A DNA stretch of 48,056 nt, from the NCBI GenBank assembly GCA_015066095.1, contig SVPC01000011.1, positions 1 to 48,056 on the forward strand. Direction: 5' to 3'. Every line of letters begins with the position of its first letter. The first letter of the stretch is position 1. Of the stretch, positions 721 to 46,019 are shown in pieces. The notes beneath the pieces are model-generated. The model saw only the letters and a program-made list of their open reading frames with translations. It searched no databases and had not been told where the DNA came from. The DNA is from Oscillospiraceae bacterium. GTDB lineage: Bacteria; Bacillota; Clostridia; Oscillospirales; Acutalibacteraceae. A program made the position numbers and the translations under genes.

Positions 721-2568
721 ATGATGGGAGAAAAACAAACCAAGTTTCGTTTTTTTAATTCAACAACACTAAAGATAGTTGGAGCTGTACTGATAATTTT
801 CTTGGCAATTGCTCTGTTGTGGCACGGCAATGCAAACAGTATGCAAGCTATGCCTGCTTTGGTGGCTAGGGTATATTTCGACGGTGAGTACCGTATTGCC
901 GACGGTGAGTGGCAGAAAATTGTAAAAGGGAATCATATTTCTTCTACTGAAGGAGATGTGACCCTGCGAGGCAATTTCCATATGCTCACACCGGATGGTG
1001 AGTATGTTGGCATTTACAGTGACAACATTCCGATTGCTCTTTATACAAATCATATTAATCTGACGTTTTATGAGGGCAAAAATGAGCCATTTATAACAGA
1101 TGTGGAAAATCCTTTATACGGAGATTCTGCTTGTCACGAGGATTGGACTGCTTATGTGCTTACAAGCGGAAGCGAAGAGCCGATCGAGATTCTTATTCAT
1201 AATCCCCATAGTTTTGGTAACGAAACCGCCATTGACGAGATGCTGTCCCGCACGGCTTTATGGACGGATATTGAGTTTGAAAAAGGCGTTTTTGAAAGTG
1301 GGAAAACCCAAAGAGATATCGGTTTATTGTTTGCTATCATTTCTCTTATCGTTTTAGGAACGGCTTTGTTCTCAACACTGATACATATAAAAAACAGTAA
1401 GATTCTTTGGTTGTTCGGCATCGTAATTTTGTTCGCCGGCACATACCTGTCTTATAGTGCAGAAGGCGTTTCCTTCTGGAGCGAATCCGTTGTATCCAAT
1501 ACGACGATTTTGGGCTGCTCAATGATGTTCTATATGCTCTTCCTTTATATTGCGCTTGTGCACTTTCTGAAAGGTACGAAAACAATTGGTACAATCACCG
1601 TTGTTCTTCTCGGTTTTGTTAACGCAGTGCTTCTTGTTTTGCCTATCTTAACGGATATGTTGTTTTATAATTTGTGGCTTTACTGGGCTGCTGCGCAAAT
1701 TCTTGCAAACATCATTCTTCTTGGTTGCCTTATACGAGAGTTCTTTGTTACAAAAGGAAAAGAGCGATGGATTTATATCGGTTCGATTTTGCCGCTTATC
1801 TCTTTCGGCTTTGATGTTATTATGACAGACCTTGGATTATGGAAGGGCGGACTTGCGTCTAAATACATTTTTGTTGTTTTCTTTATTGCTGCAATGGTTG
1901 CGGTGCTTAAAGTTATACCAAACAGCATCAACGCTCTGGCTTTAGCCAAAGAATTGGAAACCGAGAAAATCGTATTAAACGCTCAGCTTACCGAAAGCAG
2001 AGTTTCTACTATGATGAGTCAAATTCGTCCGCACTTTATTTATAATACTCTCGGCAGTATTGAACAGCTTTGTAATATTGAGCCACGGAAGGCAGGAGAA
2101 CTCGTTCATAATTTTGCGAAATATCTGAGAGGTAATTTCGGAGAACTGGATAATCCAAAACCGATTTTAATGTCGCAAGAAATGGAACACGTACACCATT
2201 ACATTAGTATTGAAAATGTGCGTTTTCCGGATATGACCTTCTCATTTGAGATGAATTCAGACGATTTTCATATTCCTGCACTTACCATTCAGCCAATTGT
2301 AGAAAATGCGATCAAACATGGACTTATGAAATTGCAAAAAGGCGGTACAATCCGTGTAATCTCCTATGAGACCGATACCCATTACTGCGTTACGGTGGAG
2401 GATGACGGTGTAGGCTTTGATACGGGTGTCTTGCTTGACGAAAGAAAACACGTGGGAATCCGTAATATTCGCGGAAGATTAAAGGCGATGGTAAATGGCA
2501 CCCTTGAAATCGAAAGCACTCAGGGTGTTGGCACCAAGGTCTTGATATCGATTCCTAAGGGGGCGTAA
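721..2568 (+). CDS. sensor histidine kinase, LytS/YehU type with multi-TM sensor
   Basis: Membrane sensor kinase of 615 residues. One N-terminal membrane helix (about 17-35) is followed by an extracytoplasmic domain (to about 195), then a block of seven predicted helices (about 200-415), an arrangement like 7TMR-DISM receptors. The cytoplasmic part is a His_kinase (LytS family) dimerisation/phosphoacceptor segment containing RPHFIYN, with the likely phosphorylated His at 438, then a GHKL ATPase with the N-box PIVENAIKHG and the G-boxes DDGVGFD and GIRNIRGR. AAGGAG at 710-715 is 5 nt from ATG 721 and 8 nt from ATG 724, so the second ATG may be the true start. The response regulator begins 3 nt after the stop, so the two are a co-translated two-component pair. 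The ligand is unknown. Confidence 0.88.
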   Translation: MMGEKQTKFRFFNSTTLKIVGAVLIIFLAIALLWHGNANSMQAMPALVARVYFDGEYRIADGEWQKIVKGNHISSTEGDVTLRGNFHMLTPDGEYVGIYSDNIPIALYTNHINLTFYEGKNEPFITDVENPLYGDSACHEDWTAYVLTSGSEEPIEILIHNPHSFGNETAIDEMLSRTALWTDIEFEKGVFESGKTQRDIGLLFAIISLIVLGTALFSTLIHIKNSKILWLFGIVILFAGTYLSYSAEGVSFWSESVVSNTTILGCSMMFYMLFLYIALVHFLKGTKTIGTITVVLLGFVNAVLLVLPILTDMLFYNLWLYWAAAQILANIILLGCLIREFFVTKGKERWIYIGSILPLISFGFDVIMTDLGLWKGGLASKYIFVVFFIAAMVAVLKVIPNSINALALAKELETEKIVLNAQLTESRVSTMMSQIRPHFIYNTLGSIEQLCNIEPRKAGELVHNFAKYLRGNFGELDNPKPILMSQEMEHVHHYISIENVRFPDMTFSFEMNSDDFHIPALTIQPIVENAIKHGLMKLQKGGTIRVISYETDTHYCVTVEDDGVGFDTGVLLDERKHVGIRNIRGRLKAMVNGTLEIESTQGVGTKVLISIPKGA

Positions 2569-2570
2569 TA

Positions 2571-3350
2571 ATGATTGCAATAGCAGTTGATGACGAAATA
2601 TTAATGCTTGGCGCTTTGGTAGCAGCAATTAAAGCTTCCCCCGATATCTCTGAAGTTTCTCAGTTTTCCGCCTGTGATGAGGCCCTTGCCTTTGTAAAAG
2701 AAAATTCGGTTGACGTTGCCTTTTTGGATATTAATATGCGTGGTATGGGTGGACTTGCACTTGCAGAAAAGATTTGCAGTGTCTGTCCCGATTGCAAAAT
2801 CGTATTTTGTACCGGATATGAGGAATATGCTATTCCAGCATTTAAGCTCCACGCTTCCGGATACTTAATGAAACCTGTATCGGCCAAAGATGTGCAGGTG
2901 GAGATTGATAATATCAAAGGCATTCGTCAAAGAGAAAAGCCACTTACCGTAAAATGCTTTGGTAATTTCGAGGTCTATGCTAAGGGAGAAAAGCTTACAT
3001 TCAAACGTTCAAAAACAAAAGAGTTGTTTGCCTTTTTGATTGACAGAAACGGTGCAGGGGTTAAGGTTGCGGAAATAGGGGTTGCACTCTGGGAAAACGA
3101 TAAAGAGCAAAAGAACCAAAACTATATCCATCAATTATTTCGTGATATGCGCCAAACCCTTGAAGCAATTGGTATGGAAGAAATTTTCGAGAGAAACAAC
3201 TATCTCTATTCTGTAAATCCCGAGAAAATTGATTGTGATTATTATAGTTATTTAAAAACCGGAAAGCCCGAATTTATCGGTGAGTATATGTCCCAGTACA
3301 GCTGGGCGGAAGGAACTTGCGGATTGCTTTGGGAGAGAAAATCTAAATAA
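2571..3350 (+). CDS. response regulator with SARP/OmpR-like winged-helix output
   Basis: Partner of the upstream kinase. The REC domain covers about residues 1-120 with the acidic pocket VDDE and phosphoacceptor Asp53 (FLDINM); FCTGYEEY carries the switch Thr and LMKPV the conserved Lys. The C-terminal half begins KPLTVKCFGNFEVY, the usual opening of a Trans_reg_C/SARP-type DNA-binding domain, and continues through FKRSKTKELFAFL and NYIHQLFRDMRQTL. The trailing BTAD-like helices are very short. This output differs from the LytTR domain most often paired with LytS-type kinases. A terminator follows at once, so the pair forms its own transcription unit. Confidence 0.85.
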   Translation: MIAIAVDDEILMLGALVAAIKASPDISEVSQFSACDEALAFVKENSVDVAFLDINMRGMGGLALAEKICSVCPDCKIVFCTGYEEYAIPAFKLHASGYLMKPVSAKDVQVEIDNIKGIRQREKPLTVKCFGNFEVYAKGEKLTFKRSKTKELFAFLIDRNGAGVKVAEIGVALWENDKEQKNQNYIHQLFRDMRQTLEAIGMEEIFERNNYLYSVNPEKIDCDYYSYLKTGKPEFIGEYMSQYSWAEGTCGLLWERKSK

Positions 3351-3361
3351 CAAGCTTGGAA

Positions 3362-3388
3362 AAAGCCGTCGTTTCGACGGCTTTTTTT
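3362..3388 (+). terminator. intrinsic terminator after the two-component pair
   Basis: A perfect stem AAAGCCGTCG (3362-3371) / CGACGGCTTT (3375-3384) with a 3-nt loop is followed by a T run. It lies 12 bp after the response-regulator stop. Confidence 0.9.
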
Positions 3389-3526
3389 ATTGGTTTGTAA
3401 GAGGTTTGTCATACCATAAAAGTTATAATAAAATGGAAAATAGACTAAGTGTCATGCTTGTTAAGGTTTTAATTTGTTGTTAGGGCAAAATAAAATAAAA
3501 AATTTTCTTTGAAAGGGCGAATTATC

Positions 3527-4207
3527 ATGATTAAAAACAGAACAGCGCAATTAATTTATCAAACCATTTACCTTACACTTGGGCTTGTTGGTTTTGTTGC
3601 AAGCCTTGGAATCTTTGACAACATCAATACGATTCGTTGGGATTTCTACGTTCACTTTACTAACATCAGCAATTTTCTGTGCATTGGTGTTATGCTTACT
3701 GCGCTTATTCAAACGGCAAAGAAGAAAGAAGACAGCTTTGTTTCTGCTGCTCCTGTTCTCAAGTTTATCGGAATGCTCGGCATTTTGCTTACTTTCCTTG
3801 TGTTCAATATTATGCTCGCCGGCGCTGAAGGTCGTGATCCCCAGGCAAACTGGCGTATCGGCAGCCTGTGCTTCCACGTAGTTCTTCCTATTATGTACAT
3901 AGCTGACTGGTTCTTATTCTATGAGCGTAAAAACGCTAAGTGGTATTATCCCATCGCTTCTATTGCATTCCCGCTTGTTTATGTAATTTTCCTTCTTGTT
4001 CAGGCGATTATTTTGAAGTTCGATTCTTCTATCCTTATTCCTACTACAACCACGCCCCTTATCTACCCTTACTTCTTTGTAAACCTTGATACTCAAGGTG
4101 TTTACGGTGTTCTTATGTGGATAGGCATTCTTTCTGTGGCATTTGTCGTAGTGGGATTCTTGTTCTTTGGACTTGATAAACTTCGCAAGAAAAAATTTGA
4201 TAAATAA
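3527..4207 (+). CDS. Pr6Pr family integral membrane protein
   Basis: A 226-residue protein that is nearly all membrane helices (six or seven). Features typical of the Pr6Pr family are visible: YVHFTNISNFLC near the start, HVVLPIMYIADWFLFYERK in the middle, and a conserved YPYFFVN segment before the last helices. The family has no firmly known function. ATG 3527 is preferred over the in-frame TTG 3509 because GAAAGGG at 3511-3517 is a ribosome site placed for the ATG. The next small membrane gene follows 18 nt later with its own AAGGAG, so the two are probably co-transcribed. Confidence 0.75.
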   Translation: MIKNRTAQLIYQTIYLTLGLVGFVASLGIFDNINTIRWDFYVHFTNISNFLCIGVMLTALIQTAKKKEDSFVSAAPVLKFIGMLGILLTFLVFNIMLAGAEGRDPQANWRIGSLCFHVVLPIMYIADWFLFYERKNAKWYYPIASIAFPLVYVIFLLVQAIILKFDSSILIPTTTTPLIYPYFFVNLDTQGVYGVLMWIGILSVAFVVVGFLFFGLDKLRKKKFDK

Positions 4208-5590: not shown

Positions 5591-5624
5591 TAAATAGACA
5601 ATTATATAGAAAGGAGCTTTGATA

Positions 5625-6584
5625 ATGCCAAAAAAACAAAAAAAGTTTGCCGATGACGGCTGGGCTATTTGGGTAGATGGTGATGATACAAGTACGGTCT
5701 ATATTAACGATTGGCTTAATCCAAAAGGAAAATGCCATGTAGATATAGCAGTTCGTATACGAGGCATAAAATCCAGCAAGTTTTTACATGTTTATGTCCC
5801 GTTTGTTGTTTCTCGGGATGAAATTGAAGATGTATCTTTGCTTTTTAACGATACAAAAATTTTGCAGGCAACCTTTAGTGCAGCCTGCATTGTAGACTAC
5901 AAAAAAAATGAGCATACTTCGGAGATAGCGTATAACGGAAAGACGGTAGATATTGTACATATCAGTACCTTGGAATATGAAATCGTGGCGTTATCAACCG
6001 GTACACTAATCAGTGTTGATTTGGATAAATTAAAAGCTACACTTGATAACGATGAGGCTTATTTCATTTGGCGTATGCCACATAAATCATTGGACGAAAT
6101 TTTTAAACCACGCGTAGATGTTGGAAATGCAATGAGCAGACTTAGGGATTTGATTACAACTCCTGTAGTTTCGGAAAAATACGGTTACTCTATTCGCATT
6201 AACGAAGCAAGACTTTTGCCGGAAGAGATTACAAGAATCGGTATATTCCACCGTCAAAAATTAAAGAAAGCGGTTATTACCCTTTCTATTGATGAAAGTT
6301 ATGAACTTAATGACGGGGGTTGCTATCGAATTCGTCGCTTGGAAGAAAATTTATATAAAGACTATCTTCCAAAGAGTTATAAACACGAGGATGTTATCAC
6401 CTATCAATGGAATCAAAATCGAGAGCATAACCAGCAAGGACAATTTAATTTCTATTATAACCTATCGAAGGATTCGGTAAGTAAAAGCAGTATGTTTTTG
6501 TATATGGTCCTTCTTTTGGCGATTAGTATTTTTGGCGATCTTTTAGCAGAGTTAGTTAAAACCTTGATACGCATGTTTATATAA
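5625..6584 (+). CDS. unrecognised protein with a C-terminal membrane anchor
   Basis: 319 residues. The first 280 or so are soluble and mixed alpha/beta, with no motif I know. A single hydrophobic helix near the C-terminus (MFLYMVLLLAISIFGDLL) would anchor it, possibly as a tail-anchored protein with its bulk in the cytoplasm. ATG 5625 has AAGGAG at 5611-5616 with 8 nt spacing. Its stop is only 9 nt before the sensor-phosphatase start, so it is probably the first or second gene of the partner-switching operon and could be a regulator or target of it (inferred from position only). Confidence 0.75.
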   Translation: MPKKQKKFADDGWAIWVDGDDTSTVYINDWLNPKGKCHVDIAVRIRGIKSSKFLHVYVPFVVSRDEIEDVSLLFNDTKILQATFSAACIVDYKKNEHTSEIAYNGKTVDIVHISTLEYEIVALSTGTLISVDLDKLKATLDNDEAYFIWRMPHKSLDEIFKPRVDVGNAMSRLRDLITTPVVSEKYGYSIRINEARLLPEEITRIGIFHRQKLKKAVITLSIDESYELNDGGCYRIRRLEENLYKDYLPKSYKHEDVITYQWNQNREHNQQGQFNFYYNLSKDSVSKSSMFLYMVLLLAISIFGDLLAELVKTLIRMFI

Positions 6585-6593
6585 AGGGGTGGT

Positions 6594-9434
6594 ATGATGA
6601 GATTAATTATTCCAATATTACTTAATTGCCTCCTCGTTATTTTAGTTTACCTCATTGATAAGTATACCCTTGCAAAAAAACTCCCCTATATAGCAAAGCA
6701 AATTATCATTGGCCTTTTGTTTGGTGGAGTTTCCGCCTTTGCGTCGAGTTTTGGTGTGGAATGGCTTGGCACAACTGTCAATGTTCGTGATGCGGCACCT
6801 CTTTCGGCGGGTCTTATTTTTGGTGCACCCGCCGGCATTATTTCCGGTCTTATTGGAGGACTGTATCGTTGGTTCTCTGTATATTGGGGAGGCGGTATGT
6901 ATACACGGCTTGCCTGCAGTCTCGCAACCATTCTTGCCGGATTTATGGCTGCAGGTCTCAGAAAGCTGATGTTTGACAACAAAAAGCCCACTTGGAGTTA
7001 CGGCATATGTATTGCTGTGGTGTGCGAAGTTATCCATATGATTCTGATATTCTTGACAAATATGGATAATTCTTCCCAAGCCTTTGAATTTGTCAAGGGT
7101 GCCACTGCTCCTATGATGTTGGGCAACTCCGTGGCTGTTGGGGTATCTATCATTTTGGTTTCTCTTTTTAGTCACGAGCGCTTTTTTAGAAAGAAAACTT
7201 CCGAAGGCATCGCCCATACTTTTCAGCGAAGACTTCTTAGCTGCATTGTAATTGCATATCTTATTACCAGCACCTTTACTCTTATCCTCCAGAATGGAAT
7301 GGCGCAGATTGAAACACAAGAAGTGTTTACTGTTGCTATCAATGACGTTGAGGCAGCTGTAAGAGAGAAATCCAACCGCCAACTTCTTGAAATTGCAGAA
7401 CAGGTTAAGAAGGAATATGAAAAAGACACAAAGGTATCCTTGTCCGATCTTACTAAAAAATACGATATTAAAGAAATAAACGTTGTTGCTCCGGGTGGCT
7501 TAATTACAAATTCCACAGAAGCGGATGTTATAGGCAACTATGATATGAATAGCAAGGCTCAATCCAAAGAATTTGTAGATACGCTTAGAGTTCAGGATTC
7601 TTTCGTACAAGAGTATTCGCCCAGAGGCAAGGATGAATCTGTGTGGAGAAAATATGCGGCTGTGAATCTTACAGACGGTGGATTTATTCAGGTGGGCTAC
7701 GACGCCGAGCAGTTTCATAAAATGCTCAATGAATTTGTAATTGATGTTACCAAGAATCGTCATGTCGGAACTAGCGGTTTTGTAGCAGTACTTGATGAAC
7801 AGCTTTGCATGGTTATTGATAACGACTACTCAGGCAAGTATGTCTCTTCAATCGGCATTAATCCCCCAAAAGAGATGATACAGGGGCAAACCGCTACCGC
7901 TCTATATAATGCCGACGTTGTAGACGGTATCAGTAATTTGAGTGCAGAATATATGTATGTATTCAAGTTCGTTGAGGGCTATTGTCTGATTGCGGCTATG
8001 CCGGTGGATGAGGCTATGTTTATGCGTGATGCTTCTATGCTGACAAGCGTTTTTATGCAGGTGATTATTTTTGCGACCCTATTCGTATTTATTTACTTAC
8101 TCATTAAGCGCGTTATCATTAATAATCTAAAAAAAATCAACGATACCCTTGCACGGATTACAGATGGTGACCTGAGTGTAACTGTCGATGTGCGTTCCAA
8201 CGTGGAATTTGCTTCGCTGTCAGACGATATTAACTCCACAGTTGCTACCTTAAAACGGTATATCGCCGAAGCCGCTGCACGCATTGATAAAGAGCTTGAA
8301 TATGCTAAACAAATACAGCTTTCGGCACTGCCCACAAACTTCCCTGAAAATGAAGAATATGGCATCTATGCCGAAATGATCGCCGCAAAAGAAGTCGGCG
8401 GAGACTTTTACGATTTTTACAAGTTAAATGATACAACCGTGGCTTTCCTTGCTGCCGACGTTTCCGGCAAAGGAATTCCTGCTGCAATGTTTATGATGAC
8501 TGCCAAGACCATTATCAAAGACCTTGCAGAAAGCGGTATGTCTGTAAATGATATCTTCACAAAGGCAAATGAAAAGCTTTGTGAAAACAATGAGTCGGGC
8601 ATGTTTGTAACGGCTTGGATGGGAATTTTGGACCTGACTACCGGCAACGTACAGTTTGCCAACGCAGGTCACAATCCGCCCCTCTTAAAGCGTGCAGACG
8701 GTTCGTTTGAATATTTAAAGACTCGTGCGGGGTTCGTTCTTGCCGGTATGGAGGGCGTTCGTTACAGAGTCGGCGAAATCACACTAAACGAAGGCGACCG
8801 ATTGTTCTTATACACAGACGGTGTACCGGAGGCTACAAACATAGATAATAAACTTTACGGTGAGGATAGTCTGTTATCCTTTATGAACCAGAATGCTTCT
8901 ATGGAAGCTACTAAACTTTTACCGGCACTAAAAGCCAATATCGACGAGTTTGTGGGTGAAGCACCACAGTTTGATGATATTACCATGCTAATGTTTGATT
9001 ATAACCTTAAAAAAGGAGGTGAGCATATGACGAATAAAACTTTCCCTGCCAAAACCGAATCGTTATCTGAGGTTCTTAGGTTCGTAGAGGAAACTCTTGA
9101 GGGCTTTGAATGTCCTATGAAAATCCAAACGGCAATCTGTGTCGCCATTGAAGAAGTGTTCGTCAATGTTGCTCACTATGCCTACCCGCAAGGCGAAGGG
9201 GATATGTCACTCCATATTGGTTTTGACGACCAAAGCCGTGCTATTACCTTCCGTATGACTGATAAAGGCGTTCCTTTTGATCCACTTAAGAAACCGGATC
9301 CCGATATTACTTTATCGGCTGAAGACCGTGAAATAGGTGGTCTTGGCATCTTTATCGCCAAGAAAACAATGGATTCGCTTAGTTACTCCTATGAAACCGG
9401 CGAGAACATTCTAACTATGACTAAAAAGATATAA
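6594..9434 (+). CDS. RsbU/SpoIIE-type PP2C phosphatase with 5TM sensor, fused to an RsbW-like ATPase
   Basis: 946 residues. Order: a LytS-type 5TM domain (about 1-195; NVRDAAP and AGLIFGAPAGIISG are typical), a helix near 220, an extracytoplasmic sensor (about 235-480), another helix, a HAMP-like linker, then a SpoIIE/RsbU PP2C phosphatase (about 575-800). Its metal-binding residues are all present: EVGGDFYD (600-607), DVSGKG (622-627), TDGVPEA and DD at 794-795. Residues 812-946 form a GHKL anti-sigma-type kinase: N-box IEEVFVNVAHYAYP, G1 DKGVPFDP, G2 GGLGIFIAKK. So one polypeptide carries both the kinase and the phosphatase of a partner switch. A strong SD and in-frame ATG at the domain junction could also make the ATPase alone. 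ATG 6594 or 6597 may be the start. Confidence 0.9.
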   Translation: MMRLIIPILLNCLLVILVYLIDKYTLAKKLPYIAKQIIIGLLFGGVSAFASSFGVEWLGTTVNVRDAAPLSAGLIFGAPAGIISGLIGGLYRWFSVYWGGGMYTRLACSLATILAGFMAAGLRKLMFDNKKPTWSYGICIAVVCEVIHMILIFLTNMDNSSQAFEFVKGATAPMMLGNSVAVGVSIILVSLFSHERFFRKKTSEGIAHTFQRRLLSCIVIAYLITSTFTLILQNGMAQIETQEVFTVAINDVEAAVREKSNRQLLEIAEQVKKEYEKDTKVSLSDLTKKYDIKEINVVAPGGLITNSTEADVIGNYDMNSKAQSKEFVDTLRVQDSFVQEYSPRGKDESVWRKYAAVNLTDGGFIQVGYDAEQFHKMLNEFVIDVTKNRHVGTSGFVAVLDEQLCMVIDNDYSGKYVSSIGINPPKEMIQGQTATALYNADVVDGISNLSAEYMYVFKFVEGYCLIAAMPVDEAMFMRDASMLTSVFMQVIIFATLFVFIYLLIKRVIINNLKKINDTLARITDGDLSVTVDVRSNVEFASLSDDINSTVATLKRYIAEAAARIDKELEYAKQIQLSALPTNFPENEEYGIYAEMIAAKEVGGDFYDFYKLNDTTVAFLAADVSGKGIPAAMFMMTAKTIIKDLAESGMSVNDIFTKANEKLCENNESGMFVTAWMGILDLTTGNVQFANAGHNPPLLKRADGSFEYLKTRAGFVLAGMEGVRYRVGEITLNEGDRLFLYTDGVPEATNIDNKLYGEDSLLSFMNQNASMEATKLLPALKANIDEFVGEAPQFDDITMLMFDYNLKKGGEHMTNKTFPAKTESLSEVLRFVEETLEGFECPMKIQTAICVAIEEVFVNVAHYAYPQGEGDMSLHIGFDDQSRAITFRMTDKGVPFDPLKKPDPDITLSAEDREIGGLGIFIAKKTMDSLSYSYETGENILTMTKKI
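9014..9029 (+). promoter_or_regulatory. strong internal Shine-Dalgarno and in-frame ATG
   Basis: AAGGAGGTGA followed by GCAT and ATG (9027) lies inside the phosphatase-ATPase gene and is in frame with it. It sits exactly between the PP2C domain, which ends at about 9005, and the ATPase domain. It is as good an initiation site as any in the window. It would give a 135-residue RsbW-like protein. Confidence 0.6.
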
Positions 9435-9449
9435 AGGAGATATAGCTGT

Positions 9450-9746
9450 ATGACTATTGAAATCAAGAAAAATCAGGAAGAAACCATCATCGAGATTGTA
9501 GGAAGACTCGATACCATCACTGCCCCCGCGCTTGATAAAACCATTAACGAGGACATCGGAGATACTAAAAACCTTGTTCTTGATGTAAAAGGCATGGAGT
9601 ACATCTCCAGCGCAGGACTTCGAGTGCTTCTTTCTGCACAGAAGAAAATGCAAAAGATTGGCTCTATGAAAGTAACGGGTGTTTGCGAAGAGGTTATGGA
9701 AGTGTTTGAAATGACCGGATTTGCCGACATTTTGGTGATTGAATAA
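9450..9746 (+). CDS. STAS-domain anti-sigma factor antagonist-like protein
   Basis: A single 98-residue STAS domain of the SpoIIAA/RsbV type. The conserved loop GMEYISSAGLRVLL carries the serine that the cognate GHKL kinase phosphorylates (Ser54 by alignment to SpoIIAA). AAAGGAGA lies upstream of ATG 9450, 15 nt after the phosphatase-kinase stop, so the likely kinase and phosphatase for this STAS protein are encoded by the gene before it. Its stop overlaps the next start (TAATG). What it binds in its unphosphorylated form is unknown, because no sigma-factor gene is nearby. Confidence 0.9.
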   Translation: MTIEIKKNQEETIIEIVGRLDTITAPALDKTINEDIGDTKNLVLDVKGMEYISSAGLRVLLSAQKKMQKIGSMKVTGVCEEVMEVFEMTGFADILVIE

Positions 9747-10312
9747 TGGAACTTGTAAGCGAGGCTATCGCATTTGCAGTGAAGGCTCACGACGGAATGC
9801 GACGCAAAAAAAGTGATGCCCCATACATCCTGCATCCAATGGAAGCAGCAGTTATTGTTGGCACGATGACAGATGACCAGAATTTGCTCGCTGCAGCCGC
9901 TCTCCATGATGTTGTGGAGGATGCGGGTATTACCACCCAGGAAATTGAAGAGAGATTCGGCAGACGCGTACGGGAACTTGTGGAGTCTGAAACCGAGGAT
10001 AAGCGAGCTGACTTGCCGCCTGAATCGACCTGGCGTATTCGTAAAGAAGAATCTCTAGAGGTGCTTAAAAATACAGATGACATCGGTGTACTGATGGTAT
10101 GGCTTGGCGACAAACTTGCCAATATGCGTGCCATCTACCGTGATTTCAAGGTGGAGGGCGAAGCGATGTGGCAGCGATTTAATCAAAAGGATGTAAATCA
10201 GCAGGCTTGGTATTACCGCTCAATTGTTAAATTGACCGAGCGTTTATCTAACACTTCGGCGTGGCTCGAATACAAAACACTTACAGAACTCGTATTTGGA
10301 AAAGGAGAATAA
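9746..10312 (+). CDS. HD-domain hydrolase, MESH1/SpoT-like (p)ppGpp hydrolase family
   Basis: 188 residues covering just the hydrolase domain of RelA/SpoT proteins. The metal ligands are visible: His30 (YILHPMEAA), His54-Asp55 (AALHDVVED) with the following Glu58/Asp59, and Asp122 (LGDKLANMRAI). No synthetase, TGS or ACT domain is present. Family members remove the 3'-pyrophosphate of (p)ppGpp or act on related phosphorylated nucleotides. The start overlaps the STAS stop by 1 nt, so it is translationally coupled to a partner-switching component. That makes control of the enzyme by STAS binding an attractive but unproven idea. Confidence 0.85.
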   Translation: MELVSEAIAFAVKAHDGMRRKKSDAPYILHPMEAAVIVGTMTDDQNLLAAAALHDVVEDAGITTQEIEERFGRRVRELVESETEDKRADLPPESTWRIRKEESLEVLKNTDDIGVLMVWLGDKLANMRAIYRDFKVEGEAMWQRFNQKDVNQQAWYYRSIVKLTERLSNTSAWLEYKTLTELVFGKGE

Positions 10313-10316
10313 ACAA

Positions 10317-11489
10317 ATGAATGTTACTTTTCGTGTAGATAAAGATATTCTGTATATTGCTGTCGAAGGAAGAATTGATGCTTCCAATGCGGCTGAAGCA
10401 GAAGAAAAGATTTTCAGTATTAAAAATGATAACCCGGGAAAGCATACCGTTGTTGACGCGGATAAATTGGAGTACATATCTTCTGCAGGATTGCGTGTGA
10501 TTTTAAGGCTGAGAAAAGAAGAACCTAAGCTTGCTATTATTAACGTAGCATCGGACGTTTACGAGGTTTTCGATATGACCGGCTTTACCGATATGGTTAC
10601 AGTTGAAAAAGCATATCAGAGAATGAGCGTCCAGGGTTGTGAATTCATTGCAAAGGGCGCTAATGGTGCCGTTTATCGCTACGACGATGAAACCATCCTC
10701 AAGACCTATTTTGCAAAGGACGCTCTTCCTGAAATTAAGCAAGAACGTGAAAACGCAAGAAAGGCATTCGTTCTCGGCATCAATACCGCAATTCCTTACG
10801 GCATCGTTCGTGTGGATGACGGCTATGGTACAGTTACGGAGCTTTTAAATGCAGTCAGCGTAACTAAGCTAATTCGCAACAACCCCTATGATATGTCTGA
10901 AGCGGCGAAATATTACATTGATATGCTTAAAAGCATTCACGCTATTAAGGTGGAAGACGGCGAAGTTCCCGATATGAAGGAAACTGCTCTTGCTTGGGCA
11001 GATTTTGTGGCTCCTCATCTTACTGAAGAACAAGGCAAAAAGCTTCGTGCTTTAGTCGAAGCTGTTCCTAAGCAGAACACACTGATGCACGGTGACTATC
11101 ACACCAATAACATTATGGTACAAAACGGCGAACCTTTGCTCATCGATATGGATACTCTTTGTATGGGACACCCTGTATTTGAACTAGGTTCTATGTTTAA
11201 TGCATTTATCGGCTATTCTGAGCTTGATCATCAGGTAACAATGAATTTCTTTGGATACACCCACGAATCGGCAGAAAAATTCTGGGATATGTCTCTTAAA
11301 ATGTATCTTGGCACTGATGATGAAGAGGTATGCAGGAGCGTTGCAGAAAAGGCAATGATCATCGGTTATACCCGTATGCTTCGTCGTGCTATTCGCCGTC
11401 CTGAAGAGGTAGACAGTCCTGCAAAAATAGCAAGATGCAAAGAAATGTTGGCAACTCTGTTGAGTAGAGTTGATACGTTAGTCTTTTAA
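10317..11489 (+). CDS. STAS domain fused to an APH/choline-kinase-like phosphotransferase
   Basis: 390 residues in two parts. Residues 1-100 are a STAS domain with KLEYISSAGLRVIL (candidate phosphoserine Ser56), a close relative of the stand-alone STAS protein two genes upstream. Residues 105-390 form an aminoglycoside-phosphotransferase-like kinase: GANGAVY loop (114-120), ATP-binding Lys129 (ILKTY), catalytic HGDYHTNN with Asp260, and Mg-binding Asp277 (LLIDMDT). The substrate is unknown and need not be an antibiotic; relatives act on small alcohols and sugars. ATG 10317 follows AAAGGAG (10301-10307); an upstream in-frame TTG 10296 overlaps the HD gene. Last gene of the operon. Confidence 0.88.
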   Translation: MNVTFRVDKDILYIAVEGRIDASNAAEAEEKIFSIKNDNPGKHTVVDADKLEYISSAGLRVILRLRKEEPKLAIINVASDVYEVFDMTGFTDMVTVEKAYQRMSVQGCEFIAKGANGAVYRYDDETILKTYFAKDALPEIKQERENARKAFVLGINTAIPYGIVRVDDGYGTVTELLNAVSVTKLIRNNPYDMSEAAKYYIDMLKSIHAIKVEDGEVPDMKETALAWADFVAPHLTEEQGKKLRALVEAVPKQNTLMHGDYHTNNIMVQNGEPLLIDMDTLCMGHPVFELGSMFNAFIGYSELDHQVTMNFFGYTHESAEKFWDMSLKMYLGTDDEEVCRSVAEKAMIIGYTRMLRRAIRRPEEVDSPAKIARCKEMLATLLSRVDTLVF

Positions 11490-11752: not shown

Positions 11753-11764
11753 TAGTAAATCAAA

Positions 11765-11797
11765 AAAAGATACTGCGTCGGCAGTATCTTTTTATTA
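11765..11797. terminator. bidirectional intrinsic terminator
   Basis: AAAAGATACTGC (11765-11776) pairs perfectly with GCAGTATCTTTT (11781-11792) around GTCG. It has a T tail on the plus strand and a T tail on the minus strand. It probably marks the end of the partner-switching operon 270 bp upstream. Confidence 0.85.
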
Positions 11798-24212: not shown

Positions 24213-24248
24213 AAAATAAAAAATGCCACAGGCAATGTACCTGTGGCA
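24213..24248 (-). terminator. riboswitch-controlled terminator before thiT
   Basis: TGCCACAGG (minus, 24248-24240) pairs with CCTGTGGCA (24232-24224) and is followed by TTTTTTATTTTG. It stands between the TPP riboswitch and thiT, so thiamine pyrophosphate probably shuts off thiT by premature termination. Confidence 0.88.
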
Positions 24249-24263
24249 ATACAAACGCTGTAT

Positions 24264-24356
24264 TTCCCTACGGCGGCATTATCCGCATCAGGTTATCGGT
24301 CGAAGTCATAGTAAAACGGACTTCCTCTCAGCCTGAGTTTCATCAAGCTCCCTAAT
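24264..24356 (-). ncRNA. TPP riboswitch (THI element)
   Basis: On the minus strand the conserved parts are in order: GGGAGCTTGATG, CTCAGGCTGAGAGG, then ACCTGATGCGGATAATGCCG and GCCGTAGGGAAAT. These match the TPP-binding helices of the THI box. It precedes thiT, a thiamine transporter. The leader is made from a consensus promoter just upstream. Confidence 0.96.
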
Positions 24357-24366
24357 TGCAAGTGTA

Positions 24367-24395
24367 ATTATAACACTGAAAAAACTATATGTCAA
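24367..24395 (-). promoter_or_regulatory. thiT: consensus sigma-A promoter for the riboswitch-thiT transcript
   Basis: On the minus strand TTGACA (24390-24395) and TATAAT (24367-24372) are perfect matches with a 17-bp spacer. Transcription would start about 5 nt before the riboswitch. Confidence 0.88.
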
Positions 24396-24496
24396 GCGTT
24401 TACAAAATTTTTTGGTTGTTATGAACTATTATTATAGTATATGTTTACTAATAAAACAACGCGAAGCGTTGTATATCATTGCTTTCGCAATGGATA
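24396..24496. other. intergenic stretch with two small palindromes
   Basis: No gene. It contains CAACGCGAAGCGTTG (24458-24472) and CATTGCTTTCGCAATG (24477-24492), short hairpins of unknown role lying downstream of the tRNA operon terminator. They could be remnants of a dispersed repeat. Confidence 0.4.
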
Positions 24497-24530
24497 AAAA
24501 AATTGACTTGCTTTCACAAGTCAATTTTTT
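24497..24530 (-). terminator. terminator after the tRNA genes
   Basis: A perfect 14-bp stem (AAAAAATTGACTTG and complement, 24497-24510 with 24517-24530) follows the tRNA-Tyr gene on the minus strand and gives a T-run 3' end. Confidence 0.85.
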
Positions 24531-24532
24531 GG

Positions 24533-24614
24533 TGGGAGCGGGTGGATTCGAACCACCGAAGTCGAAGACAACAGATTTACAGTCTGCCCCCTTTGGCCAC
24601 TCGGGAACACTCCC
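24533..24614 (-). tRNA. tRNA-Tyr (anticodon GTA)
   Basis: 82 nt on the minus strand, with acceptor arms GGGAGTG/CGCTCCC, the D-arm box CCCGAGTGGCC, anticodon loop CTGTAAA, a long variable arm as in bacterial tRNA-Tyr, and T-loop GGTTCGAATCC. Discriminator A. The CCA tail is encoded (24530-24532). Confidence 0.97.
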
Positions 24615-24645
24615 ATATTTAATTGTAACACTTAAAAAAGTCTGG

Positions 24646-24718
24646 AGCTGGTGGACGGACTCGAACCCCCGACCTGCTGATTACAAATCAGCTGCTCTAC
24701 CAACTGAGCTACACCAGC
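24646..24718 (-). tRNA. tRNA-Thr (anticodon TGT)
   Basis: 73 nt on the minus strand, with acceptor arms GCTGGTG/CACCAGC, D-arm TAGCTCAGTTGGTAGAGCA, anticodon stem GCTGA/TCAGC around TTTGTAA (anticodon TGT) and T-loop GGTTCGAGTCC. The CCA tail is encoded (24643-24645). Transcribed upstream of tRNA-Tyr from a shared promoter. Confidence 0.97.
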
Positions 24719-44606: not shown

Positions 44607-44918
44607 ATGGTAGAAATCAATGTTACGGGTGAAGTTGTTACGGCATATTTGTCGGGTGAACTTGACCACCACACCGCAAAGGTTATGCGCGAAATGATAG
44701 ACAATGCGATAGAACTTAATATGCCGTCGCTTTTGGTACTCGATTTTACGGGTGTATCTTTTATGGACAGTTCGGGCATAGGTCTTGTTATGGGGCGTTA
44801 CCGTAATCTGCAAAAATTGGGAGCGGTGCTTCACATAAGCGGTACATCACCTAATATATATAAGGTGATGAAACTTGCAGGAATAGAAAAATTAGCAAAA
44901 TTGGAAGGAAGGCAATAA
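44607..44918 (+). CDS. spoIIAA: anti-sigma F factor antagonist SpoIIAA
   Basis: 103 residues, a STAS domain. DFTGVSFMDSSGIGLVMGRY carries the phosphorylation site Ser56. First gene of a spoIIAA-spoIIAB-sigF set in the canonical order, which starts the forespore programme. SpoIIAB phosphorylates it; in the unphosphorylated state it takes SpoIIAB away from sigma F. AGAAGGTGAAAAA lies before ATG 44607. The next gene begins 2 nt after its stop. Confidence 0.96.
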   Translation: MVEINVTGEVVTAYLSGELDHHTAKVMREMIDNAIELNMPSLLVLDFTGVSFMDSSGIGLVMGRYRNLQKLGAVLHISGTSPNIYKVMKLAGIEKLAKLEGRQ

Positions 44919-44920
44919 AA

Positions 44921-45361
44921 ATGGTTAAAAACAGTTTTAGTATGACAATGTTTTCGCGCTCGGCTAACGAAGGGTTTGCCCGCGCGGTGGTTTCAGCATT
45001 TGCTTCGCAGTTAGACCCGACGCTCGAAGAAATAAGTGATATAAAAACCGCCGTTTCGGAAGCGGTAACCAACTGTATTGTACACGCGTACGATTCGGGC
45101 GTGGGTAAAATCTACATAACCGCAGAACTCATAGATGATAATGTTATGAAAATCAAGATAAGGGATAAAGGGCGCGGAATAGAAAATGTGCAAAGGGCAA
45201 TGGAGCCGTTATATACCACCGTGGGCGGTGAGCGTGCCGGTTTAGGTTTTGCAGTGATGATGTCCTTTATGGATAGTGTTAAGGTGCGCTCTACCGTTGG
45301 TAAGGGTACAAGCATTATTATGATTAAGAAAATCAACCGTCGCTTTAGCATAAATGGTTGA
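44921..45361 (+). CDS. spoIIAB: anti-sigma F factor SpoIIAB
   Basis: 146 residues, GHKL kinase. N-box VSEAVTNCIVHAY, G1 RDKGRGI, and the ATP-lid/G2 VGGERAGLGFAVMMSFMD; the start NSFSMTMFSRSANEGFARA is the usual SpoIIAB opening. It holds sigma F inactive and phosphorylates SpoIIAA. The last 8 nt overlap the sigF start (ATGGTTGA), which couples synthesis of the anti-sigma factor and its sigma factor. Clearly distinct from the RsbW-like domain of the phosphatase fusion at 9.0-9.4 kb. Confidence 0.97.
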   Translation: MVKNSFSMTMFSRSANEGFARAVVSAFASQLDPTLEEISDIKTAVSEAVTNCIVHAYDSGVGKIYITAELIDDNVMKIKIRDKGRGIENVQRAMEPLYTTVGGERAGLGFAVMMSFMDSVKVRSTVGKGTSIIMIKKINRRFSING

Positions 45362-46019
45362 GTTAAAGCAGAAAAGAGAAGAATTTATAGAACAAAACCT
45401 ACCGCTTGTACACTCCATTTGTAAGCGTTTTGTAGGGCGCGGTATAGAGTACGACGATTTGTATCAAGCAGGATGCATAGGACTTATAAAGGCGGTAGAT
45501 GCTTTTGATAGTACCAAAGGCTTTGCTTTTTCTACCTATGCCGTGCCTGTAATAATGGGTGAAGTGCGACGTCTTTTTCGTGACGGGGGAGCGGTTAAGG
45601 TTTCAAGAAGTGTAAAAGAACTGTATCTTAAAATAGTGCGTGAAAAATCAGTTTTGGAACAAAAACTTTGCCGAGAGCCGACTGTGAGCGAACTGGCACA
45701 AAGTTTGGGTGTAACAAGCGAAGATGTGACCGATGCTTTGTGTGCAGGAAAACCCACAGTATCGCTTACTGCACAGGATGAAGACGGTGTTAGTGAAACT
45801 GATTTGCCCTGCGAGTCGCACGAAGAGGGGGTATGTGACCGAGTTATGCTCGATAGTGCATTTAAAAATCTCGACGAAAATGAGCTTAAAATTGTTAAAT
45901 GCAGATATTATCAGGCTTTAACACAAAGTAAAACCGCAAAACTTCTCAATATGTCGCAAGTTCAAGTGTCGCGTGCTGAACGAAAAATACTGCTTAAATT
46001 AAGGGAATATATAGGGTAA
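45354..46019 (+). CDS. sigF: RNA polymerase sporulation sigma factor SigF
   Basis: 221 residues. Region 2: EEFIEQNLPLVHSICKRFVGRGIEYDDLYQAGCIGLIKAVDAFD, then GFAFSTYAVPVIMGEVRRLFRDGG (promoter melting). Region 3: REPTVSELAQSLGVTSEDVTDAL. Region 4: LDENELKIVKCRYYQALTQSKTAKLLNMSQVQVSRAERKIL. The position after spoIIAB and the length identify it as sigma F. The start overlaps spoIIAB by 8 nt. It shows that the organism can sporulate, or descends from spore formers. Confidence 0.96.
   Translation: MVELKQKREEFIEQNLPLVHSICKRFVGRGIEYDDLYQAGCIGLIKAVDAFDSTKGFAFSTYAVPVIMGEVRRLFRDGGAVKVSRSVKELYLKIVREKSVLEQKLCREPTVSELAQSLGVTSEDVTDALCAGKPTVSLTAQDEDGVSETDLPCESHEEGVCDRVMLDSAFKNLDENELKIVKCRYYQALTQSKTAKLLNMSQVQVSRAERKILLKLREYIG

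Follow-up and report, generated by a model that had tools for sequence, protein, structure and literature searches.

A five-gene locus of an Oscillospiraceae bacterium is probably a partner switch that acts on alarmone turnover and not on transcription initiation. The combination behind this reading, a recurring partner switch together with predicted alarmone enzymes, is real: gene content, gene order, co-occurrence, gene fusions, conserved motif residues and the lack of a spare sigma factor were observed directly. An alarmone output is the best reading of these data, with binding, activity and control of the two enzymes D and E being proposed. If correct, a membrane-sensor partner switch packaged with a hydrolase would connect external signals with the stringent response in a modular way, suggest a role for the kinase family TIGR02172, and yield a testable claim on how gut and rumen bacteria set growth.

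Gene content of the locus and predicted function of D

The window (the whole stretch of DNA analysed, 48,056 nucleotides) makes up a complete contig; the genome measures 1.32 Mb and is 95.5% complete. At positions 5625-11489 the window carries five tightly packed plus-strand genes, A to E, as the sequence-only reading had placed them. Gene A (5625..6584, with TTG at 5619 as a possible start) encodes an accessory protein of 319 amino acids without a Pfam match; its C-terminus is hydrophobic by eye, in line with the earlier description of an unrecognised, tail-anchored protein. Gene B (6594..9434) follows after 9 bases, and its product comprises 5TM-5TMR_LYT, HAMP, SpoIIE/PP2C and HATPase_c_2 domains (Pfam). 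As proposed, a 5TM-sensor, RsbU-like phosphatase is fused to an RsbW-like ATPase in a single chain, and the motif residues are conserved in the alignment. Gene C (9450..9746), 15 bases downstream, encodes an RsbV-like STAS protein (Pfam) with an ISSAG motif, in which the serines are candidate phospho-acceptors; both were present in 94 of 94 STAS rows. Judged by sequence, the locus has all parts of a partner switch: a phosphatase of the PP2C type, a GHKL kinase, and a STAS protein carrying a candidate acceptor serine.

The start of gene D (9746..10312) overlaps the stop of C by one base, the ATG lying within TAATG. Gene E (10317..11489) codes for a STAS domain fused to an APH-like kinase (Pfam); both features had been noted before and were reproduced. 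The likely start of E is ATG 10317, preceded by AAAAGGAG, which leaves a gap of 4 bases and no overlap with D; TTG 10296, the choice of the ORF lister, is an alternative. The best NCBIfam family of E was TIGR02172 with 119 bits, below the curated cut-off of 228.2, and E is accordingly referred to as related to this family. A terminator-like stem (consensus match only) follows at 11764..11793 on both strands. Elsewhere in the window, an ordinary TPP riboswitch and genes for tRNA-Tyr and tRNA-Thr are located at 24248-24718 on the minus strand.

D consists of an HD_4 domain alone (Pfam), with metal-ligand residues and without a synthetase domain, as in small alarmone hydrolases (SAHs). Its best PDB matches were stand-alone HD proteins of 187-204 residues (7qoe, 7qoc, 4yf1), followed by the hydrolase domains of Rel and MESH1. 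Residues H30, H54, D55, E58, D59, D122 and N126, which we take to be the Rel metal ligands, were invariant among relatives (all rows covering them, 46 or 47 of 47), and the ligand set predicted earlier is intact. We predict D to be an SAH, with (p)ppGpp as its putative substrate. HD-fold members can act on other substrates, and the genome also codes for one long bifunctional Rel, which weighs against the alarmone reading with respect to the share of D in turnover. Two neighbourhoods of plasmid-borne D relatives from 320 plasmid records, one checked by six-frame BLAST and the other by annotation and an HMM map, contained no switch genes.

Recurrence of the locus in two phyla

Within the order of the bacterium, a D-seeded search found D in 12 of 295 genomes at E ≤ 1e-38, a cut-off chosen after the score gap was seen. 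E adjoined D in 9 of these 12 (hypergeometric 2.2e-7, shared ancestry ignored), in line with the co-occurrence of HD and STAS-APH genes that had been put forward for checking. D stood without adjoining E in G267, G281 and G097, and G274 contained a shortened D-like match below the cut-off with no E nearby.

Relatives of E (E ≤ 1e-20) occurred in 34 of the 295 genomes. Mapping of 34 regions from 33 other genomes gave, together with the window, 35 STAS-APH regions, some of which end at contig ends; L065 and L066 come from the same genome. HD adjoined STAS-APH in nine regions, including G073, which was counted as positive with its HD gene split over two contig ends (B-C-D on one, E on the other). 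In the other 26 HD was absent, and 19 of the 35 carried a STAS-APH-RsbW single chain instead; HD is therefore one alternative partner, and its candidature as a constant part is ruled out. The sequence-only reading had itself named homologous loci lacking the HD and STAS-APH genes in most genomes as an argument against it, and this argument applies in part. HD was found together neither with the STAS-APH-RsbW fusion nor with a PHP gene (0/35 each). The latter was present in 14 of the 35 regions, all without HD (L039, L041-L045, L049-L052, L055, L056, L058 and L059); in 12 of them it follows the APH gene at a distance of at most 46 nt. Three PHP proteins tested were nearest to 3',5'-nucleoside bisphosphate phosphatase, with 98-106 bits far under the cut-off of 400; judged by sequence, PHP is possibly the alternative hydrolase of HD-less loci.

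Several HD-less loci (L039, L042, L049-L055, L057-L060, L065) also encode c0, a conserved protein of about 200 amino acids, near STAS and usually PP2C genes (e.g. L058 5240-5845); c0 gave no Pfam match (two tested) and no NCBIfam match (one tested). L062 contains two tandem STAS-APH genes at 6078-10032, one of them within a 923-aa frame. MATE-HATPase fusions and a DctA-like transporter, with an N-terminus that is RsbW-like by eye, were seen at L055 6158-7915, L038 9803-11557 and L213 7634-9211; partner switches may steer transporters as well.

The closest relative of the window locus, with all five genes in order and 81% in E, was found in another family (G225), and G043 of the same genus as the window has the fusion type only (45%); horizontal transfer of the locus is therefore likely. 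A occurred in 3 of the 295 genomes, in one of which it sits between a GGDEF protein and SAS-HD, SAS being a synthetase that was found in a single genome of the order (1/295, G002) at two loci. Locus one has the order GGDEF-A-SAS-HD, with STAS and 5TM-PP2C further on, which ties the orphan protein A to alarmone enzymes; in locus two the order is STAS-HD-SAS, and a further STAS gene lies close by together with PP2C and HATPase. The HD gene overlaps SAS in both, and no APH was seen in either region. The tightly packed genes for a GGDEF protein, A, SAS and HD at L194 5556-9681 possibly form a joint c-di-GMP and alarmone unit. Upstream of the A gene of L194, the region is syntenic with window positions 721-4207, which contain genes for a large membrane protein that matches HATPase weakly and looks like a kinase by eye, for a response-regulator-like protein and for a membrane protein.

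A D-seeded scan of genome contigs covered the best 80 of 580 relatives, the basis of the Firmicutes, Bacteroidales and long-Rel counts below: 37 members of the D family, 36 long Rel and 7 others. By record titles, many of which name ruminant or gut samples, 16 of the 37 D-family loci are from Firmicutes and 21 from Bacteroidales or Bacteroidia (Bacteroidales in the following). STAS-APH adjoined D in 8 of the 16 Firmicutes loci, or in 7 when an overlapping-frame filter drops the HD frame of L093; in 8 of the 16, some ending at contig ends, no switch genes were found. SAS was absent from all 16 and from the window operon.

Among the Bacteroidales loci, 18 of 21 contained SAS, which in 17 shares the strand of D and is separated from it by less than 100 nt. 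An APH gene was likewise present in 18, adjoining or fused in 15 and on the opposite strand at a distance of about 3 kb in three; it was not found in the SAS-HD locus L101, nor in L208 of the genome survey below. At least one of STAS, PP2C and HATPase was encoded in 16 (HATPase 16, STAS 15 or, without overlapping frames, 14, PP2C 13), and all three were absent from L094, L100, L112, L114 and L117. A frequent order among the matches listed was SAS-HD-APH-PP2C/HATPase-STAS with small gaps or overlaps, and HD and APH form a single chain in six loci (L107, L111, L112, L116, L209, L210). Three Bacteroidales APH proteins scored 224.5, 227.2 and 230.7 bits against TIGR02172 (cut-off 228.2). None of the 36 long-Rel loci contained SAS, APH, STAS, PP2C or HATPase; in two of the seven other short-HD or unassigned loci, PP2C was encoded on the opposite strand, and its proximity is hence not fully specific. 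The training genes of the locus HMMs came from the very loci mapped here, and BLAST with the window proteins, which does not cover SAS, gave a similar picture. L047 and L092 carry an identical HD on equally long contigs, are probably one record, and appear in different counts and as two tree rows. Among further neighbours of the Bacteroidales loci are a K+/H+ antiporter, an Na/Pi symporter-PhoU and SsuA-like binding proteins (L106 292-1791; L209 12913-14640; L105 5331-6287), which are perhaps sensors or outputs.

The synthetase SAS is nearest to the RelQ/YjbM type. The RelA_SpoT domain was detected in 3 of 3 proteins tested (51-68 bits, cut-off 27), the nearest NCBIfam model was YjbM, and all 8 PDB matches at E ≤ 0.001 were GTP pyrophosphokinases, the nearest being small ones. 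Residues kept in 18 of 18 sequences include G82, R84, G124-Y125, S127-L128-H129, E142, Q144 and R146. In a survey of 247 Bacteroidales genomes (SAS E ≤ 1e-30, D E ≤ 1e-33, TIGR02172 APH E ≤ 1e-30), SAS was found in six, D in the same six and APH in five, all among those six, one of which (G295) was the seed genome. When the seed was left out, the hypergeometric values were 1.4e-10 for the identity of the SAS and D sets and 3.4e-8 for APH within SAS (shared ancestry ignored). All five unseeded genomes had HD in the SAS gene cluster, with APH in between in G552; APH was present in 4 of 5 and PP2C, HATPase and STAS in 4 of 5, and G408 (L208) contained SAS and HD only.

An HD tree of 66 rows was labelled for linkage to switch, APH or SAS genes (41 linked, including L094, L100, L112 and L208, which have SAS or APH only and no switch part). 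The linked Firmicutes HDs fell into a set of 18 (16 linked; 96/95) and the linked Bacteroidales HDs into a set of 25 (23 linked, four with SAS or APH only; 100/100). The label required 7 changes on the tree, compared with 20.3 after shuffling, and none of the 500 shuffles gave so low a number; therefore linkage was gained or lost more than once. The HDs of G002 lay outside both sets, near the Rel domains, on a long branch flagged as unsure by the program, and its SAS-HD may represent an independent pairing.

Proposed output of the switch and competing explanations

According to the alarmone-turnover reading, the 5TM sensor of B would determine whether the PP2C or the RsbW domain of the same chain prevails. 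The former would dephosphorylate and the latter phosphorylate two serines, one in C and one in the STAS part of E. Depending on their phosphorylation, the STAS domains would bind either the RsbW domain or the enzymes, and this choice would activate or silence both D, as a (p)ppGpp-type hydrolase, and the APH kinase of E. A switch of this kind is accompanied in Bacteroidales by a RelQ-like synthetase in addition, and would constitute a make-and-break unit there. In this scheme, we infer STAS phosphorylation, physical binding, the direction of control and the action of D on (p)ppGpp. The idea of a partner switch with enzymes in place of a sigma factor, put forward in the sequence-only reading, is supported by the neighbourhoods in two phyla, the HD-APH and STAS-APH fusions, the synthetase beside D in Bacteroidales and the lack of an unpaired SigB-type sigma factor among those detected in the genome; HD as a constant partner did not hold up.

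The strongest competitor, though an unlikely one, is that the real output lies with the APH kinase. Its product would be a phosphorylated nucleotide or another small molecule, not necessarily (p)ppGpp, which HD here or PHP in other loci would hydrolyse and whose level the switch would control. In Firmicutes it is APH and not HD that is fused to STAS, and APH is common to HD loci and PHP loci; the mutual exclusion of HD and PHP, the short distance from APH to PHP and the relation, albeit distant, of PHP to a nucleoside bisphosphate phosphatase all fit. Against this, the SAS gene beside D in Bacteroidales fits alarmones directly, and APH is missing from L101, L208 and the two SAS-HD regions of G002. 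A more specific proposal, which we regard as improbable, is that the molecule is a new nucleotide messenger with a 3'- or 2'-phosphate, produced by APH and degraded by HD or PHP. The RelQ-like synthetase would be an optional third arm, and membrane sensors would drive the cycle via STAS phosphorylation. If true, such a phosphorelay would feed straight into the nucleotide second messengers of two phyla.

It is very improbable that SAS and SAH form a toxin-antitoxin or defence-like unit guarded by the switch, the Firmicutes form being a remnant or antitoxin only. In Cellulomonas marina, FaRel has an SAH antitoxin gene at its flank (passages of PMC11782079), SAS matches the PADLOC candidate PDC-S33 at 2.1e-13, and the distribution is scattered. 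However, YjbM as the nearest NCBIfam model of SAS and the lack of a toxSAS name in any of its 8 PDB rows (E ≤ 0.001) point elsewhere, the window operon has no SAS toxin gene, and a toxin-antitoxin pair would not be expected to come with a complete sensor and switch. The five window proteins gave no PADLOC match, and a defence system was rejected on these grounds.

Six sigma factors were detected in the genome (PF04542), with SigA, SigF, SigK, SigE, SigG and SigH-like as best NCBIfam families; the SigG match is partial at a contig end, and SigF, SigG and SigH score below the curated cut-offs of those models. The earlier statement that no sigma factor gene is nearby is ruled out as worded by a spoIIAA-spoIIAB-sigF operon in the same window (44607-46019), a sporulation switch separate from the A-E locus. 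SigF itself (45354-46019) lies behind its own antagonist SpoIIAA and anti-sigma factor SpoIIAB, 33 kb away. The A-E locus contains no sigma factor gene of its own, as SigB- or SigF-type systems would, and no unpaired SigB-type sigma factor was found in the genome, in which a missed gene is possible at the given completeness. HATPase_c_2 scored above cut-off three times, in B, in SpoIIAB and in a gene on C14 whose operon looks hydrogenase-like by eye, and two more matches were below cut-off. B is without an obvious sigma partner because the detected sigma factors are SigA and types of the sporulation set, with SigF already partnered. The least probable explanation is that the switch acts on SigF in trans, with D and E merely co-transcribed. 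PP2C domains like that of B act on SpoIIAA-type antagonists, and such a target is present in the same genome, but SigF has its dedicated partners adjoining, the match of B to SpoIIE reaches only 36.8 bits against a cut-off of 490.8, and the link of D to APH recurs in Bacteroidales.

Comparison with known systems

Alarmone enzymes are tuned by ribosomes, metabolites and single binding proteins. One of the latter, the anti-sigma factor Rsd of E. coli, is to our knowledge neither a STAS nor an RsbW protein. Passages of PMC10704370 name Rsd, ACP and others as such proteins and describe stimulation of the SpoT hydrolase by Rsd, a case of an anti-sigma factor acting on an alarmone hydrolase; SpoT, however, is a long bifunctional enzyme. 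RelH of Corynebacterium glutamicum, a bacterial SAH, is a stand-alone alarmone hydrolase like D, but its abstract mentions no partner-switch genes (PMC5954133). The faRel/aTfaRel toxSAS operon likewise has SAS and SAH genes side by side, but is a toxin-antitoxin system, and the passages concerned name no sensor, PP2C, RsbW or STAS (PMC11782079).

A partner switch packaged with alarmone enzymes was not found in titles and opening lines of abstracts from the open-licence literature, and an earlier report elsewhere is possible. The open-access literature gave no paper on TIGR02172, and its only match for STAS with aminoglycoside phosphotransferase concerns fungi. The parts consulted of a 2011 RSH survey name SAH subgroups but no partner switch (PMC3153485), those of PMC7159879, which has an alarmone and STAS context, cover other conflict systems, and those of PMC10212131 point to a possible role of (p)ppGpp in SigB activation.

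The RsbU-RsbV-RsbW and SpoIIE-SpoIIAA-SpoIIAB systems share phosphatase, kinase and STAS parts with conserved motif residues with the window locus, which differs by the lack of a sigma factor and by the fusions of phosphatase to kinase (B) and of STAS to kinase (E). In the HsbR-HsbA-HsbD system, a kinase and a PP2C act on one regulator, and phospho-HsbA binds the diguanylate cyclase HsbD (PMC6482189); this system also controls the sigma factors FliA and RpoS, and the passages name no alarmone enzyme. In SiaABCD of Pseudomonas aeruginosa, the phosphorylation state of SiaC, which resembles an antagonist, depends on a PP2C phosphatase and a kinase; SiaC activates the nucleotide second-messenger enzyme SiaD (PMC8457831; PMC7647112). 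There, a diguanylate cyclase serves as the output, the phosphorylated residue of SiaC is a threonine, and no HD hydrolase, SAS or APH kinase is named in the two abstracts. For none of the pairs SiaC-SiaD, HsbA-HsbD and Rsd-SpoT is a STAS protein acting on an SAH described in the passages concerned. The route proposed here would parallel SiaABCD for c-di-GMP, with the Bacteroidales version including the synthetase.
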